The notes under the pieces: model-generated
Database searches by the model: none
Told to the model about the DNA's origin: nothing
Seen by the model: only the letters and a program-made list of their open reading frames with translations
Position numbers and translations under genes: made by a program
Shown here: positions 1 to 7,299 of the stretch, piece by piece
How positions within the stretch are numbered: position 1 is the stretch's first letter
Layout: each line of letters begins with the position of its first letter
From: a virus
Strand: one strand, 5' to 3'
IMG/VR virus record: IMGVR_UViG_3300030012_004578
Coordinates: 1-24,647 of that record
Length of the DNA: 24,647 nucleotides

Positions 1-3000
1 CAAATAAGAGAAGAAGCAATCGATAGATTACAAAAAGAAAATCCTGATCTTTCACCAGAACAGATTGCACAACAAGCAGACCTGTTGGCATTACAAGCAG
101 ATACAGCAGACAAAAGAGCACGACAAAGAATATATTCTTTCCAAGGTCCTGATAGAGCCAGACAAGCAGGTGATCCATTTAGTATGCCTGCTACACCAAC
201 AGCATTCAGAACACCAGGTCAAGATTTTATAGGTGGTAGGTTGCAAAGAGATCCAGAATCCATTCGTGAAATGGGTGTTGGTGAAGCAATGTTTGAAGCA
301 TTAAAACCACAAACAATCATGTCAAGAGAAGAACTGGCACAATCAGAAGGTATGAGAAACCAAAGAGCAGCACAGTTCCAGTTGTCCATACAGTCGCCTT
401 CAGATAAGGATCTACCATTTGAACAAGTAGTACAAAGACAAGATGAAAGAGCAAAACAAATTTTCTTGCAGAAGTTAGAAGCAGCAAAACAAGATGCAAG
501 ACAAGAAGTATTGACAACAAATATCAATGCAATGCAACATCCTAATTTTGAAAACTACATAGAAATCAAAGCCATTGAATCAGTCAGAGCAGATATTCGA
601 GATATTCTTGGTGTTAGGCCAATGCATTTTGCAACACGCGACAAGCTACTGGCAGATCCAGATTTTGCAGTACCAGAAACCAGTTTGGTTGCACAAGCCA
701 AAGATTTTGGTATTGAATATTTACTACCTACACTTACAGACGCTACAACAGAAAAGAAGTTTGGTGAGCTGACAGAATCTATGGGTATGACAATCATTCG
801 TGATATTGGTTTGCCATTCAGGATGATCAACAATCCGATAGAAGAAACGCTAGAAAACATGATCGAAGTAAGTTCAGGCCAACCGTTGGAAAAGCAATCC
901 ACAAAAGGCCAGCTTTATGATGCATACAGTATTGACTTGACAGAAGAAGCAGAAGGATACTTTCCAATCGATGCATATTTAAAAGAAGTTGCACTGGAAA
1001 CAGCAACAGGATATACAATGGGTAATGCTTTTGCAGCATATGCAAAGGCACCAGCCAAAGATCCGCAGAAACCAGACATTGGATTGGACCAACAAGATCA
1101 ACTGTTTATTATAGGTACAGCAGCAGAACTGATTATACCATACGGTACATTATTGAAAGCACCAGGATTTGCAGCCAAAGCTACATTTGGTGCAGGTGGT
1201 AGAGCTGTTGGTGCAATGGCTGATGCAGCTAGTTTAGCTAAGTCAGCAAAAGGCACAAAAGCAGCAGGATCACTTAGATCACCTGGTCCAATAGAATCTG
1301 TATATAGATCAAACACATACATTGCAGAAAAAGCAGCAGATAATATTGCAGGTGTTGAGGCAGCAAAAGATATTGTAAGAGCCAGAGCACAAAGAGAAGC
1401 AATCGATATCGCTGGTGATGAAGCAATGGATGTTGCTGCAGAAGGTGCATCAAGAGCAAGAACTGCAACCACCAGAAAAATTCGTAGTGAAGCAGATGCA
1501 AAATCACTTGATGAAGTAAGAGATGTATTGACAGTATCAGATCCAAAAGATCTAGAAAAACTAGAAGAGGTTGCTGGATCAAAAGCAATATCAGATTACA
1601 ATGCAACAGATATTAGAAAAGCATATCCAAGATTTAGTGAAGATCTAAGAAAAAGTATTGATGAAATCTTTGAAGAAAATCTTAAGCAAGCCAAGGCAAA
1701 CAATCTTACAAGAGAAGAAGCAGCACTAGCTGAATATGATTTTATTACAGAACTACGCTTTGCTGATGAACCACTTGAGGTTCGTGTAGGTAAAATAACA
1801 GATGAAGCTATTGATGATGCATTGCTAAGAATGAGACCAGGTGCTAGAAGAGTGGCTGATGATTTACTTGACAAAGCAGATGCCTTACCACAAACACCTG
1901 ACGAATTAAACAAATTTGCTGATGATCTTGACAACTTTATAGAAAGAGCAGCAATGAAAGACGACATGTATGGTGATATGGCAAGAGTCGTATTACGAGA
2001 AGGTGGCGTTAGATATGGTGTTGCAGATGATGTTGTAAATCCTCTCAGTAAAATGCCAGGTATTCCTGAAGAGGCAGCAGCACCAATTCGTGGTGCAGCA
2101 CCACCTGTTGAAAGAGCAGGCGCATCAGCAGCAAGTTTTGAACAGTTAGTCGAAGCAGGTGCAGAAAGACTAGCAAGATTTGATATTGATAAATACACAG
2201 CACTTACAGATCGTATGAGTGTTGCCAATGTTTGGATGCAAAGAAACGGTAAGGTAATCATAGAGCGTGCAAAGAGAAACCTTGAAGCATTTAAAGGCAG
2301 ATACAGAGAATACTTTGAAGGTGTATCACGCAAGACATTACGACGAGATGTAGAACTACAAAGAATCGTTGCAAAAGCAGATGAAGGTCAAGCATTGACA
2401 GCACCAGAAGAATTATATCTTGGTGCAAGAATCTTAGAAATGGAAGCATTACAACGAGGATCAATGAATCGTGCTGATTTGTTTTTCAACAGTGGTGTGG
2501 TAGGTGAAAGAATACAAAAAGCGCCAGAACTAAGATTAAAAGATTTTCAGCCTGGTATTGTTGCAGGATCTATTGCTACGCTGGCTGGTGAGTTAAGTAC
2601 TGGTGGTGCTATTGGTATGATATCAACACGCAACGGACGACAAATCGTTGCAGAAGCCGCTCGACTTGGTTTGAATGTGCTTGGTATTAGAAGATCACCT
2701 GCACAACTTATCAACAAAGCCAAAGAAGCGGCAGGTAAATTAACAAAGAATAGATTTGGAATCACTGAAGCACCAATATACAACATTACAGCAGAACAGC
2801 AGCAGATGAGACAAGCTGTTGTTGCAGCACAAGGTGAAGTAGAAAGAATAGAACAATCAATACGACCAACTGTATCAGCTTATGTTAAGTGGGCAGCAGG
2901 TGAAGCCAAAGATGGTAATGCACAGCAAAGAGGATTGTTTCAAATGATGGTACAAAGCCAGAAACAAGATCCTGCAATGATTTTAACTGGCACACCACCA

Positions 3001-5499
3001 GATACTGAGTTGGCTCTTGGTGCTCAACAAATTCAAGATCTTGGTAGAATCACATTTGGTGCATTGGAAGCACAAGATGCAAAAGCTTTGGTTATCATGG
3101 CAAAAGATTTAGGATTTGTAGATGAGGCCGGTGAGGTTGCTGTTAAAACATTAGACCAATACCAGATACTGATGGGACAGTTTTTGACACAAAACAAAAG
3201 ATATATACCAACAACAGCGATCGAAGGCATGGCGACCAAGGTAAAGGTACCACCTGATTTACAGGCACAAGGATTACCGGCTGTTATTGACAATGCTATT
3301 GATTATGAAGGCACATTTATTGTGGCTGCAGCAAATGGTATGGCAAGACGACGCATAGAAAGAACCATTGCAGAAAAACTGTCAAGATCAAGTATTCGTG
3401 TTGCAGATAGAAAAGAAGCAGAACTTATACTACGCACAGCAACACAAAGACTTAATGATCCGATCACTTACAATCCTTACATGCAAACCAGAAACCAGTT
3501 CCAAAAACTATTGAAAGATTCTGGTTATGACACCAAGCAAACACAAGATATGCTTGATTACATTTATGGTGCAGGTGATCCTGATACATTACCAATACCA
3601 GGTTTAGGTGTATCAAGAGGTAGTATTGAAGACAAACTACGCGCTTTTTATGCTGGTAGAGATATGGATTTGTACAATCAAGTCAGAGCAGCAGGACTAG
3701 GAAACGCTGAAGATCCACTTACATTTGCACAGCAACTAGCATTTACACAAGAAACATTGCTTGGTGATAACTTTATTGGTGTTGTAGGTGCGAATACAAG
3801 AGCTGAACTGGCCAAATTAAAGACAATGATGGGTGATCCAAAATCTCTTGGTCAGTTGGCAAAAGGTTTTGAACAGTTATCTAGACCAGAAAATCAAGGG
3901 GTGCTTGGTAGTATAATGAGCACATTTGGATTCACACTTGGTGATATTCGTAGATCATTTGTATCAGGTCAGTTAGGTGGTAAATACATACCAAACCTCA
4001 GGTATCAAGCAGAAAACATTGCATCTGCACCTTTCTTGGCTGCTATCACACTAGATGGTGGTGCTGCTTCTTTCATGGGCGCAAGGTTTGCCAATCCAAC
4101 AGGTGCAAGACAACTAAGAGTAATGGCACAACAAACACCTGATGCAATCATACCAGGATCATTGAACATTACATATAAGCAGGCATTTGATGCACTACAA
4201 AGATACAATATTGGATCATCAAACAGTGCATTACAACTTAGTGATGTATTATTGAAAGACATAAAAGCCATAGCAAGAGCTGATGCAGCCAAAGCACAAG
4301 GTCAATATGGAAAGCTTTTGATATATGCAGCCGATGATTTGGTTGCATCACAGGCAGGATTAAGAGCCAAGAAAACATCACCTTACATGAAGATGGCAAT
4401 GGATCAAGACTTCTATTTTAGAGAAGCAATGTATTTTGATCAGATCAAGAAAGGTAAAACACTAGAACAGGCAGCAGATATAGCAAGAAATGCATTCTTA
4501 GATTATGGTAAAATGCCACCTGCATTTAAGAAAGCTGGTGCGCGTGGATTACTATACTTATCATTTACATACAGAACAGCAGCAGAAACATTGAAGGCGT
4601 TGTTTAAACCTAATTCTATGGCAAACCTTATCAAGCTTTCTAATTTTCAACGCAGTATGGCAAGATACTATGGTGCGTATGAATATGTAGGTGATAAAAC
4701 ATTACAGTCATTCTTCTTGTATTCTGCAGATCCTGATGTTGATTATGTACAATCATACTTTAGAAACCCATGGACAGCCAATATGATGATGTATTCTCAG
4801 ATGGTTGGTTTCGGCCTTAATGTTTATGCAGGTGATCCAGAAACCACCGTTTCGACCTCTCTAGATGCAGCATTAGATTTCTTTTACCTACCAGTTATTG
4901 ATGTTTTACGAGATCTGGACCCGGATTATAAGAAAGGTGTGCCACCAAAAACAATGTATCAAATTCTGCAAGCACAACACATGGCTGGCAACATTGATTT
5001 ACCAATATACAGTCCAACAAGAATCACAATGGAACTAGCTGAGCAAGGTGGATTACCAGGTGAATCAGTACTGGCAGCACCATTTGGTATGGGAAGACCA
5101 GAAGATGTATCACCGGCTGCATATTATATTGACAGGTATGATTTGGAAGTACGACCAATAGGATCAAAGGTGCCAGGATCTGCAACATTCTCAGATTACC
5201 AATATAGATTTTCATCACAAGCAGGCTACAACAACTTTAGATTAGATGCATTATTTATGGCGACCCTAGGTGCTCAGCGTATGGGTGGTGATGCAACAGG
5301 TGCATTGATCGCAGGTGGTGTGTTGCCGCCAGGTGCTGAATTTGGATATGCGGAAGAAGGATATCCTGTGTTATATTTATTAGGAAGAGAGACACCGATT
5401 AGAGTGCCAAAGGAATGGGAAGTAAGAGACAGACAGATAAGACAAGCCGCTAGTAAATTAAAAGAACTGGAGAAGAGTTATGGCTACAAAGTTGAATAA
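1..5499 (+). CDS. Giant virion/ejection-type protein, 5' end outside the window
   Basis: The frame is open from base 1, so the true start lies upstream. A TTG at 85 is only an internal in-frame codon. At least 1832 residues are visible. The protein is mostly predicted helix rich in Ala, Gln, Arg and Glu, with long charged stretches and a few apolar segments near visible residues 367-388 and 851-875. The C-terminal 350 residues are aromatic and Pro-rich and look more compact. I see no lysozyme, protease or polymerase motif. Size and position, between tail genes and fibre genes in the usual phage order, fit an internal virion (ejection) protein such as the largest core protein of T7-like phages; this is inference from size and context. 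Ala, Thr and Arg are coded almost always by GCA, ACA and AGA. It overlaps the next gene by 20 bases. A large tail or baseplate protein is the main alternative. Confidence 0.6.
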   Translation, partial: QIREEAIDRLQKENPDLSPEQIAQQADLLALQADTADKRARQRIYSFQGPDRARQAGDPFSMPATPTAFRTPGQDFIGGRLQRDPESIREMGVGEAMFEALKPQTIMSREELAQSEGMRNQRAAQFQLSIQSPSDKDLPFEQVVQRQDERAKQIFLQKLEAAKQDARQEVLTTNINAMQHPNFENYIEIKAIESVRADIRDILGVRPMHFATRDKLLADPDFAVPETSLVAQAKDFGIEYLLPTLTDATTEKKFGELTESMGMTIIRDIGLPFRMINNPIEETLENMIEVSSGQPLEKQSTKGQLYDAYSIDLTEEAEGYFPIDAYLKEVALETATGYTMGNAFAAYAKAPAKDPQKPDIGLDQQDQLFIIGTAAELIIPYGTLLKAPGFAAKATFGAGGRAVGAMADAASLAKSAKGTKAAGSLRSPGPIESVYRSNTYIAEKAADNIAGVEAAKDIVRARAQREAIDIAGDEAMDVAAEGASRARTATTRKIRSEADAKSLDEVRDVLTVSDPKDLEKLEEVAGSKAISDYNATDIRKAYPRFSEDLRKSIDEIFEENLKQAKANNLTREEAALAEYDFITELRFADEPLEVRVGKITDEAIDDALLRMRPGARRVADDLLDKADALPQTPDELNKFADDLDNFIERAAMKDDMYGDMARVVLREGGVRYGVADDVVNPLSKMPGIPEEAAAPIRGAAPPVERAGASAASFEQLVEAGAERLARFDIDKYTALTDRMSVANVWMQRNGKVIIERAKRNLEAFKGRYREYFEGVSRKTLRRDVELQRIVAKADEGQALTAPEELYLGARILEMEALQRGSMNRADLFFNSGVVGERIQKAPELRLKDFQPGIVAGSIATLAGELSTGGAIGMISTRNGRQIVAEAARLGLNVLGIRRSPAQLINKAKEAAGKLTKNRFGITEAPIYNITAEQQQMRQAVVAAQGEVERIEQSIRPTVSAYVKWAAGEAKDGNAQQRGLFQMMVQSQKQDPAMILTGTPPDTELALGAQQIQDLGRITFGALEAQDAKALVIMAKDLGFVDEAGEVAVKTLDQYQILMGQFLTQNKRYIPTTAIEGMATKVKVPPDLQAQGLPAVIDNAIDYEGTFIVAAANGMARRRIERTIAEKLSRSSIRVADRKEAELILRTATQRLNDPITYNPYMQTRNQFQKLLKDSGYDTKQTQDMLDYIYGAGDPDTLPIPGLGVSRGSIEDKLRAFYAGRDMDLYNQVRAAGLGNAEDPLTFAQQLAFTQETLLGDNFIGVVGANTRAELAKLKTMMGDPKSLGQLAKGFEQLSRPENQGVLGSIMSTFGFTLGDIRRSFVSGQLGGKYIPNLRYQAENIASAPFLAAITLDGGAASFMGARFANPTGARQLRVMAQQTPDAIIPGSLNITYKQAFDALQRYNIGSSNSALQLSDVLLKDIKAIARADAAKAQGQYGKLLIYAADDLVASQAGLRAKKTSPYMKMAMDQDFYFREAMYFDQIKKGKTLEQAADIARNAFLDYGKMPPAFKKAGARGLLYLSFTYRTAAETLKALFKPNSMANLIKLSNFQRSMARYYGAYEYVGDKTLQSFFLYSADPDVDYVQSYFRNPWTANMMMYSQMVGFGLNVYAGDPETTVSTSLDAALDFFYLPVIDVLRDLDPDYKKGVPPKTMYQILQAQHMAGNIDLPIYSPTRITMELAEQGGLPGESVLAAPFGMGRPEDVSPAAYYIDRYDLEVRPIGSKVPGSATFSDYQYRFSSQAGYNNFRLDALFMATLGAQRMGGDATGALIAGGVLPPGAEFGYAEEGYPVLYLLGRETPIRVPKEWEVRDRQIRQAASKLKELEKSYGYKVE

Positions 5500-5788
5500 G
5501 AAGAAGATGCCGTGTAATAAACCTCGTAAATCACCTAACCCGAAGAAGAAGAGAGTGGTTAAGGCTTGTGAGGGTGGTAAAGAAAAAATCATACATTATG
5601 GTGCTGCTGGCTTTGGCCACAACTATAGCAAAGCAGCTCGTAAATCTTTCAGAGCCAGACATGGTTGTGATAAGAAAAAATCTAAACTAACTGCTTCATA
5701 CTGGGCATGCCGTGATCTATGGTCTGCAGGTGGGAAGAAGAAAACAACAGGCACTAAAGGTGGTGTCGCAAAACGGCGGAGGAAATAA
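5480..5788 (+). CDS. Small basic phage protein with conserved Cys/Gly core
   Basis: 102 residues, about one third Lys/Arg. The ATG lies inside the end of the giant gene and is preceded by GGAGAAG. A basic N-terminus with one Cys leads to a core with the motif KACEGGKEKIIHYG (about residues 28-41), then a KSFRARHGC segment and an aromatic C-terminal motif around SYWACRDLW, followed by a basic tail. I recall this core as a recurrent small protein of marine phages of unknown function, and I have not searched it. Four Cys residues could bind a metal but the spacing is not a standard finger. It ends in TAATG, which provides the start of the next gene, so translation is probably coupled. A DNA-binding or virion accessory role is plausible but not shown. 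Confidence 0.75.
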   Translation: MATKLNKKKMPCNKPRKSPNPKKKRVVKACEGGKEKIIHYGAAGFGHNYSKAARKSFRARHGCDKKKSKLTASYWACRDLWSAGGKKKTTGTKGGVAKRRRK

Positions 5789-5898
5789 TGCCAAAAGGAA
5801 AAGGATACGGGAAACCGATGAAGAAAAAGAAGCCAGTACGCAAGGTCAAAAAGCCAGTAAAGCGTAAGGTCAAAAAGCCAGTAAAAAAAAAGTACTAA
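5788..5898 (+). CDS. Lys-rich 36-residue peptide; 0-frame product of a candidate frameshift site
   Basis: The ATG overlaps the previous stop (TAATG) and has a strong ribosome site, GGAGG, six bases upstream. The product starts MPKGKGYGKP and then carries two copies of a KVKKPVK-type repeat; 19 of 36 residues are Lys or Arg. It stops at 5896-5898 just after a run of nine A. In this frame the run contains the heptamer A AAA AAG at 5886-5892, the classic bacterial -1 slippery sequence, with a possible stem-loop starting 4-5 bases later. A -1 shift joins it to the downstream frame and gives an 85-residue protein. The short peptide may therefore be only the non-shifted product. Function unknown; the composition is protamine-like. 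Confidence 0.7.
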   Translation: MPKGKGYGKPMKKKKPVRKVKKPVKRKVKKPVKKKY

Positions 5899-6044
5899 AG
5901 CTTACTGAGGCTCAGAATAAAAAGCTTTCTATGCATAAGAAACATCACTCAGCCAAGCATATGGCAATGATGAGAAAACTTATGAAAGAAGGAAAATCAT
6001 TCGGAGCAGCACACAGAGCAGCACAAAAGAAGGTTGGAAAATGA
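5788..6044 (+). CDS. Candidate -1 frameshift fusion, 85 residues (join 5788-5892, 5892-6044)
   Basis: The downstream frame contains the conserved-looking module LTEAQNKKLSMHKKHHSAKH followed by MMRKLMKEGKSF and AAHRAAQKKVGK. That module begins before the only downstream ATG (5931). The ATG has no Shine-Dalgarno sequence at proper distance, and no ATG, GTG or TTG lies between the last upstream stop in that frame (5865-5867) and 5931. A -1 shift at A AAA AAG gives 35 residues from the first frame and 50 from the second, ending at TGA 6042-6044, which overlaps the next ATG. Alternatives are a base missing from the A run in the assembly, transcriptional slippage, or a separate 37-residue gene from 5931. 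The role is unknown. I recall the His/Lys/Met-rich C-terminal module from other phages as a stand-alone or Lys-fused small protein. Confidence 0.6.
5886..5928 (+). promoter_or_regulatory. Slippery heptamer plus downstream stem-loop (recoding signal candidate)
   Basis: A AAA AAG occupies 5886-5892 in register with the upstream frame. After a 4-base spacer, AAAGCTT (5897-5903) can pair with AAGCTTT (5922-5928). Inside, CTGA (5905-5908) can pair with TCAG (5912-5915) around a GGC loop. The 0-frame TAA is at 5896-5898. The pieces and spacing match the known dnaX-type -1 frameshift layout; activity is inferred. Confidence 0.6.
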
Positions 6045-6268
6045 AGAAAAAAAAGGTAGTGCGCCGTCGGCGTAAAAAAGCATTGCCAAAACAGTATAAG
6101 GCCCCAAAAGGATCGTCGCGAGAGAAGAAGCTGAGACGAGCTGCTGCATTGTACAAAGCTGGTAGAAAACAAGAAGCATTTAAACTAAGAGAAGAAATGG
6201 AGAAGAAAGAGCGTGCCAAAAAAAGTAAAAAGAAAAGCACCCGCAAAAAAGGGAAAGCGAAAAAGTAG
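6041..6268 (+). CDS. Very basic 75-residue protein
   Basis: The start codon overlaps the previous stop as ATGA. About half of the residues (37 of 75 by hand count) are Lys or Arg, including RRRR at 8-11 and Lys runs at both ends. The middle, roughly residues 27-58, has heptad-like Leu/Ala spacing and alternating charge and probably forms one helix. There are no Cys residues and no membrane segment. The last 56 bases are also read by the next gene in another frame. Upstream ribosome binding is weak (AAGG some 10 bases before), so expression may depend on coupling. The product resembles ribosomal or protamine-like basic peptides in composition only; I do not recognise a family. DNA or RNA binding inside the virion or nucleoid is a guess. 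Confidence 0.65.
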   Translation: MKKKKVVRRRRKKALPKQYKAPKGSSREKKLRRAAALYKAGRKQEAFKLREEMEKKERAKKSKKKSTRKKGKAKK

Positions 6269-6500
6269 TTTGATGGAAACACTTCGTAAGAAAGCGAAGG
6301 GTACCAAATTTACTGCATCACAACTTAGAAAATCATATAATCGTGGCTTGGCTGCTTATGCATCCTCAGGATCACGCAAAGGTATGTCGTCGCACCAATG
6401 GGCAATGGCACGCGTGAATTCTGTATTGCGTGGTGGAAAAGCAAGATCAATCGACTTTCCAAAGAAAGGAAAGAAGAAAACTACAAGGAAGAAGAAATGA
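6213..6500 (+). CDS. Small basic phage protein with SSGSR and HQWAMARVNS motifs
   Basis: 95 residues from a GTG start, which gives MPKK at the N-terminus; ATG 6273 is an alternative start giving 75 residues but has no clear ribosome site. Basic arms flank a compact core at about residues 33-77 with YNRGLAAYASSGSR, then MSSHQWAMARVNSVLRGG. I recall this core from small proteins of unknown function in many environmental phages; it was not searched. The first 56 bases overlap the previous gene in another frame, so both frames there are Lys-rich. It ends in ATGA, overlapping the start of a Cys-rich mini-gene. The conserved-looking core suggests a folded structural or nucleic-acid-associated protein rather than just a basic tail. 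Confidence 0.7.
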   Translation: MPKKVKRKAPAKKGKRKSSLMETLRKKAKGTKFTASQLRKSYNRGLAAYASSGSRKGMSSHQWAMARVNSVLRGGKARSIDFPKKGKKKTTRKKK

Positions 6501-6553
6501 AACAGTGCGAATGTGAATGCCCTTGCTGTAAGGAGGGAGCATGTCAAAAATAA
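6497..6553 (+). CDS. 18-residue Cys-rich micro-protein
   Basis: The ATG overlaps the previous stop (ATGA). The product is MKQCECECPCCKEGACQK, with six Cys among 18 residues in a CxCxCxCC pattern. It is too small for most gene finders. Its 3' end contains the AGGAGGG ribosome site and the first 13 bases of the next gene, so it may act as a coupling leader, as a metal-binding peptide, or both. Longer phage proteins with serial CxC motifs are in my memory, so it may be a shortened member; this was not checked. Chance is an alternative because of its size, but the stop-start overlap and composition argue for a real gene. Confidence 0.5.
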   Translation: MKQCECECPCCKEGACQK

Positions 6554-6735
6554 TACAATGGATTAACGAGAATAAAATCCGTGTAGGTTTCGTAGGCGGT
6601 GCCATAGTAATAGGTAGCGTTTGGGGAACATGTACTCTAGAACCAAATATAGGAGGTCAGGATGCCGAGATCGAAATACAGCAAGAAGCAGAAAGCTCTA
6701 GCAGCGATGGCAGTGCCGCGGAACAGGATAACTAA
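6541..6735 (+). CDS. Small single-pass membrane protein with acidic tail
   Basis: 64 residues with a strong AGGAGGG site just upstream of the ATG. A short polar, partly basic N-terminus (residues 1-14) is followed by an apolar segment rich in Gly, Val and Ile (about 15-29), then GTCTLEP and a Glu/Ser/Asp-rich tail. One Cys (31) follows the apolar segment but the preceding Thr does not fit a lipobox, so a lipoprotein is unlikely. I recall similar small proteins (Trp/Asn-rich start, membrane segment, GTC, acidic tail) from marine phages with no known job. Possible roles are a membrane or lysis accessory. Its 3' part overlaps the next basic gene in another frame. Confidence 0.65.
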   Translation: MSKIIQWINENKIRVGFVGGAIVIGSVWGTCTLEPNIGGQDAEIEIQQEAESSSSDGSAAEQDN

Positions 6736-6835
6736 AGCCGATCTGCTTGCGCTTAGGAAAAAAAAGAAGCTTAAGGTGAAGCCAACGGCTAAACAAAAAG
6801 CAATAGAACATCTCAAAAAGAAGAGGAAGAAGTAA
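6662..6835 (+). CDS. 57-residue basic protein (PRSKYSKKQK family-like)
   Basis: This short gene starts at an ATG preceded by AGGAGG at ideal distance, within the acidic tail of the membrane protein gene in another frame. The product starts MPRSKYSKKQKALAAMAVPR, continues with a NRITKADLLALRKKKK segment, and ends in LKKKRKK. I recall the KYSKKQK...A...NKIT.ADL..LR pattern from other small phage proteins of unknown function. It stops in TAATG, overlapping the next start. About 40% of residues are Lys or Arg. It is the last member of the basic cluster. A nucleic-acid-associated role is inferred from charge only. Confidence 0.7.
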   Translation: MPRSKYSKKQKALAAMAVPRNRITKADLLALRKKKKLKVKPTAKQKAIEHLKKKRKK

Positions 6836-7299
6836 TGGGACAACAAACTAAAATTCATACCAGTACAGTTTCAAGTTGGGGAGACACAGTAAATAACAAT
6901 GCTGTATGGGACAACGCCTGGGATTTTACTGAACATGCTATATTTAATCAATCAGATCTTAACTTAACATATGCTGTTAGTTCTTCTGAGCCTGCAACTT
7001 TACGAATCGGTCAAGTTGTATTTACAGGAACAGGAACGGTACCAACATCTGATGCAGAGCGTGATGGTATAGAAATACTAATCGCTTCACATTCAGGATT
7101 TGGTCGTGATCACATGATTTTTCATGGCAAAGGCACATATTCAAAAGTAAAGTACGATACAACAAAGGTCATTGCATCATTCGATGTTGATCAAGACATA
7201 TCACTTGATAGTACCGATAACATTTACATTACTGTAAGATGTGAAGGATCAAGTGCTTTGACTGCTGATAAGGGTAGAATAACCGTACAACAGTCATAA
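6835..7299 (+). CDS. Beta-rich structural protein, unknown
   Basis: 154 residues; the start overlaps the previous stop as TAATG, and AGAGGAAG lies upstream. Alternating polar and apolar residues with many Thr, Ser, Asp and Gly suggest a beta-sandwich, as in tail, fibre-associated or decoration proteins. It has one Cys near the C-terminus, no membrane segment and no enzyme motif. It precedes another protein of similar size and character (7336-7779), and a fibre gene follows. The two small neighbours may be related or form one virion substructure, but I see no clear sequence match between them. The structural assignment rests on composition and place. Confidence 0.6.
   Translation: MGQQTKIHTSTVSSWGDTVNNNAVWDNAWDFTEHAIFNQSDLNLTYAVSSSEPATLRIGQVVFTGTGTVPTSDAERDGIEILIASHSGFGRDHMIFHGKGTYSKVKYDTTKVIASFDVDQDISLDSTDNIYITVRCEGSSALTADKGRITVQQS

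Follow-up and report, generated by a model that had tools for sequence, protein, structure and literature searches.

Two tiny reading frames overlap on the forward strand of a marine phage contig, and they raise the question of whether they form one gene and, if so, how their products are joined. The first-pass annotation of this locus proposed a programmed -1 ribosomal frameshift, with loss of one A from the assembly as an alternative. Here, we analyse the whole window, a 24.6-kb virus record (IMG/VR IMGVR_UViG_3300030012_004578, positions 1 to 24,647), which is a fragment of a podovirus-like phage with genes for terminase, portal, major head, internal virion and tail fibre proteins; no close relative was found among GenBank phages. 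Judging from sequence, we think it somewhat probable that the upstream frame (ORF-A) and the downstream frame (module B) are a single small gene whose frame is broken at a run of nine As (A9), that this break is confined to the contig or its lineage, and that it may be leaky.

The two frames and their relatives

The locus lies among six or seven clustered genes, all tiny and lysine-rich (5480-6835), most of which touch or overlap; three related records (L164, L009 and L202) share part of this cluster, with a different order or with members missing. The features discussed below are listed in Table 1. Ahead of the cluster, a 1804-aa ORF (85-5499) has no Pfam or PHROG match and a close relative in L164; from its position, it is probably a large virion protein. 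It is followed by a 102-aa gene (5480-5788) that is very widespread, with at least 600 stretches in IMG/VR, and that resembles part of the profile of phrog_220, a large minor head/DNA pilot protein. Further downstream, a small gene with a weak ribosome site (6273-6500, directly behind the gene at 6041) matches DUF5824 (PF19141, E 5.4e-11).

Table 1. Features at the junction of ORF-A and module B, in window coordinates
Feature	Position	Strand	Remarks
ORF-A	5788..5898	+	36 aa, lysine-rich; start codon shares bases with the stop of the 102-aa gene before it (TAATG)
Three repeat units of ~24 bases in ORF-A	5824..5895	+	KKKPVRKV, KKPVKRKV and KKPVKKK, the last followed by Y in frame 0 or V in the -1 frame; direct reading
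A9 run	5883..5891	+	site of the frame break; candidate site of RNA polymerase slippage; L009 junction also A9
A_AAA_AAG heptamer	5886..5892	+	in the register of ORF-A, inside the A9 run
Module B	5892..6044	+	-1 frame, VLKLTEAQ...GKSFGAAHRAAQKKVGK; its TGA shares bases with the start codon of the following gene (ATGA)
Stem-loop of the first-pass annotation	5897..5928	+	-4.7 kcal/mol, z -0.39; not significant
Longer irregular predicted fold	5900..6019	+	ambiguous
First in-frame ATG of module B	5931..5933	+	no ribosome site; duplex energy -0.1 kcal/mol

ORF-A reads MPKGKGYGKPMKKKKPVRKVKKPVKRKVKKPVKKKY* and begins at an ATG with a strong ribosome site (GGAGG, duplex energy -9.5 kcal/mol). Its stop, TAA at 5896-5898, follows one codon after A_AAA_AAG. 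From 5868 onwards, the -1 frame has no stop until its TGA at 6042-6044, and the product of both frames together would have 85 residues, the length given at first pass. That the downstream frame carries a conserved module was borne out beyond chance, both by relatives in IMG/VR (164 found, of which the best 80 were kept) and by a match to the profile of phrog_31838 (E 1.5e-5, profile positions 1-51 of 51, residues 37-85 of the joined protein). No ATG, GTG or TTG precedes module B in the -1 frame, so that the extension indeed lacks a start codon. The ATG at 5931 was described as the only one and as lacking a ribosome site; the second part of this holds, and four further ATGs (5961, 5967, 5970 and 5982) follow it.

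That the two frames belong together, as the first pass proposed, is seen in the orthologue closest over the full arrangement, L009, which shares the junction beyond chance and encodes both in one frame of 92 codons (MPKGIGYGKPTKKKK...KKKTTKKKVSKLLRKKLTKAQ...GKSFGAAHRAAKKAVGK, 92 aa). Its DNA is 69% identical to the window across the junction, with a matching TAAAAAAAAAGTAnnnAAGCTT that also contains nine As. In two other records (L011 and L020), a head (MPQGKGTYGSKRG...) is joined to module B in one frame. Module B is thus a clear relative of phrog_31838, a small phage protein, to which a lysine-rich or glycine-rich tail is fused in-frame in L009, L011 and L020; phrog_31838 relatives in marine phages are in one frame, and the window copy alone is out of frame with its head.

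Of the two layouts that the first pass suggested looking for in homologues, both modules in one frame or a split at the same place, the former was found in L009, and no second split copy of ORF-A and module B was found among 63 viral and nine GTDB copies. An in-frame start (ATG, GTG or TTG) is present in 63/63 other distinct viral copies whose module B has its head, and in 9/9 GTDB copies; many have their own ATG and ribosome site, and a few are fused in one frame. The first-pass annotation had named a second module that always has its own start as counting against a shift, and the relatives bear this out in the form of an in-frame start in every other copy. When the search was widened to five neighbouring genes besides module B (173 copies in all, few of which carry runs of eight or more), no split frame was seen. 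A search with the junction pattern returned L009 and four unrelated chance matches only. L009 is the only close orthologue of the joined form that was found, and because of this, conservation of the joined form is hardly testable. One of the GTDB copies has a similar neighbourhood: in a SAR202 MAG (L207, 3965-4144), the GTG start of module B overlaps the stop of a lysine-rich gene (GTGA), which gives the same -1 neighbourhood as in the window, yet with a start codon of its own.

ORF-A also has orthologues in several states, being fused in L009 and standing alone with 38 aa in L202 and 32 aa in L200. In L202 (5928-6044), the stand-alone ORF-A ends in an A9 run directly before a TGA that overlaps the ATG of the next gene. 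The gene order of L202 is that of the window, its record holds no module B, and the close relative L164 also lacks module B. These observations would suit a scenario in which ORF-A functions alone and module B is an untranslated, decaying remnant. We regard this as very improbable, since module B has no internal stop, keeps all conserved residues, and retains a stop that overlaps the next start. Differences between module B and L009 fall mainly on third codon positions (13/10/25 for the first, second and third). Because of this bias and the intact state of module B, we conclude that selection acted on the -1 frame, and that module B was translated, until recently if not to this day.

The A9 run and the origin of the break

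Two lines of evidence bracket the point at which the frame changes. Within the 24-base repeat, frame 0 holds as far as GTA at 5881-5883, and the -1 frame applies from GTA at 5892-5894; the valine that closes the first two units (GTC in both) is matched by the latter GTA in the -1 frame only, and the third unit agrees with the other two only if reading passes into the -1 frame at the A run. Likewise, the codon alignment of the window to L009 resumes at 5892-5894 (KKKVxKL). Taken together, these place the change of frame inside the A run. In the reading we favour, an ancestral in-frame gene would have lost one A there, either through a natural indel or variant or through a slip in the assembly.

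The first pass was right to flag a missing A as an alternative, and a break of this kind is now the leading reading. By the GeneTack criteria, a singleton frameshift that is validated by similarity represents a sequencing error or a recent indel (PMC3711429). The locus resembles such singletons (PMC3711429) in being a single copy, supported by its similarity to relatives that are unbroken, without a second broken copy, and with a homopolymer (a poly-A run) at the break. It differs from them in that the assembly has no other such break: comparison with relatives revealed no other broken gene in the window. Additionally, homopolymer runs (six or more A/T, five or more G/C) were compared with those of L172, an independent contig of 96% identity found via its terminase, and 34/34 had equal length, including a T9. 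On this evidence the assembly appears accurate. L172 starts at window position 6848, about 960 bases past the site; none of the other records found via the terminase holds module B, and a search with the exact flanking sequence, aimed at contigs in which the A run differs in length, returned none. The equal run lengths and unbroken genes make an assembly artefact less likely, but some chance of one is left because L172 begins only there and nothing else covers the site. A recent natural indel in the poly-A run, or a population variant, would be an equally simple explanation. The nine As of L009 suggest that the run length as such may be ancestral. The accurate-looking assembly, the intact module B, the A9 run in L009 and the single close joined orthologue all weigh against the frame-break reading.

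If the break is natural, frame 0 would yield the 36-aa ORF-A peptide, and unselected slippage at A9 could supply some of the joined 85-aa protein, either through an extra A in some mRNAs or through a -1 ribosome shift at A_AAA_AAG. An added A in the mRNA and a -1 slip of the ribosome lead to the identical protein (...VKKKVLKL...), and peptide data therefore cannot distinguish slippage by the polymerase from slippage by the ribosome.

Slippage by the polymerase, which the first pass did not consider and which would give the same protein, could also be productive, with RNA polymerase adding an A at A9 in some mRNAs and both the 36-aa and the 85-aa product being maintained. The run lies at the frame transition, one added A restores the frame, and the occurrence of ORF-A alone in L202 and L200 makes a short product plausible. 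Known systems point in both directions. In bacteria, slippage is known to occur at runs of nine As, and in endosymbionts 12-50% of the transcripts from long poly(A) tracts are corrected (PMC5009743); with T7 RNA polymerase, poly(A) reporters in the -1 frame are rescued by up to 90% (PMC6260861). Against this, the E. coli enzyme shows hardly any slippage on A runs (PMC6260861), and a genome-wide study of E. coli and Buchnera found no restored frame (PMC5574713). The locus shares with poly(A) slippage in Buchnera, Blochmannia, Shigella genes and T7 reporters an A9 run at which one added A gives the identical joined product; it differs in that its split is not conserved. Overall, we consider productive transcriptional slippage unlikely.

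Candidate signals for a programmed shift or a restart

A programmed -1 frameshift of the dnaX type would likewise yield a short and a long product. Two stimulators accompany the shift in E. coli dnaX, namely an upstream ribosome-site-like element and a strong stem-loop, and neither is supported here. In a shift of this type, a stable stem-loop or pseudoknot would start about 5-9 bases past the heptamer. About 10 bases before the heptamer, no ribosome-site-like stimulator was found (5870-5885 reads TCAAAAAGCCAGTAAA); the nearest such bases, AAGG at 5866-5869, lie 17-20 bases before it and thus not at the dnaX distance. The inverted repeat on which the proposed stem-loop rests does exist, but 56/200 shuffled sequences fold as well, and we rejected it as a stimulator because it is no better than chance.

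A second fold, at 5900-6019, is harder to judge. It reaches z -3.96 against dinucleotide shuffles and z -2.4 (2/200) against codon shuffles that preserve the protein, and at z about -4 the segment is more structured than in 29 homologues (mean -0.75, sd 1.0), which speaks for a programmed shift. Such stability is, however, not unusual for this genome, in which 7-14% of 120-base windows are as stable. We count this fold as ambiguous because it is irregular and was picked after several windows had been inspected.

The heptamer itself is the shift site of dnaX (PMC5009743). As the first pass had noted, it is in register with ORF-A, and it falls within the overlap of both frames. It sits one codon before the stop of ORF-A, and module B has no start of its own, both of which favour a programmed shift. 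The likeness to dnaX thus extends to the heptamer in register, a frame-0 stop soon after it, and a predicted short and long product, with the difference that frame 0 gives the long product in dnaX and would give the short one here. The same heptamer occurs in register in three other, ordinary genes of the window (at 6049, 6760 and 18988), whose -1 frames are closed by a stop codon after 6, 2 and 13 codons, respectively, and it is in frame in 15/81 lysine-rich ORFs of related loci. Its occurrence in lysine-rich ORFs is, by these counts, not beyond chance, and the heptamer is common in such genes. The heptamers tested in E. coli did not exceed about 10 times a background of 0.055% when stimulators were absent (PMC4066793). 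Given the absence of a second split copy among those compared, the insignificant stem, the lack of a nearby upstream ribosome site and the commonness of the heptamer, the proposal of a programmed shift did not hold up, and we consider it distinctly improbable. At the level of sequence, slippage is possible; a programmed shift is not supported and lacks conservation, which leaves it a small probability.

Module B might also be reached by a restart, in which ribosomes that finish at TAA 5896-5898 would reinitiate at the ATG at 5931, 32 bases further on, and make a 37-residue module B. The shortened domain would retain all 11 invariant residues of the family, and methionine occurs at this position in only 1/45 aligned relatives, which we count in its favour. 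It would, however, lose the nearly invariant L, T and Q together with a large part of the domain's first predicted helix, and the ATG lacks a ribosome site. We give a restart as little credence as the decay of module B.

Possible products and their meaning

In the structure predicted for the L009 orthologue, three confident helices come after a basic tail of low confidence. On this model, the joined protein would be a lysine-rich tail plus a three-helix basic domain, and its function can be inferred in outline only. Searches of solved structures and Pfam with module B gave no function and no relative of known structure, and the matches from a viral fold library were weak and confined to small phage proteins without a name (best E 0.053).

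The most far-reaching interpretation is that a marine phage maintains both a 36-aa lysine-rich peptide and an 85-aa protein of peptide plus domain, at a ratio set by slippage of the polymerase or the ribosome at A9. We put this forward as a tentative idea that is more likely wrong than right. Should slippage at A9 prove productive, a single start in a very small phage gene would serve two proteins, a reminder that metagenomic phage genes broken at a poly-A run are not necessarily dead. Otherwise, the locus would be a case of a frame break that divides one gene in annotation. In both cases, it shows that marine phages mix domains of the phrog_31838 type with lysine-rich tails, fusing the two in some instances and keeping them apart in others.
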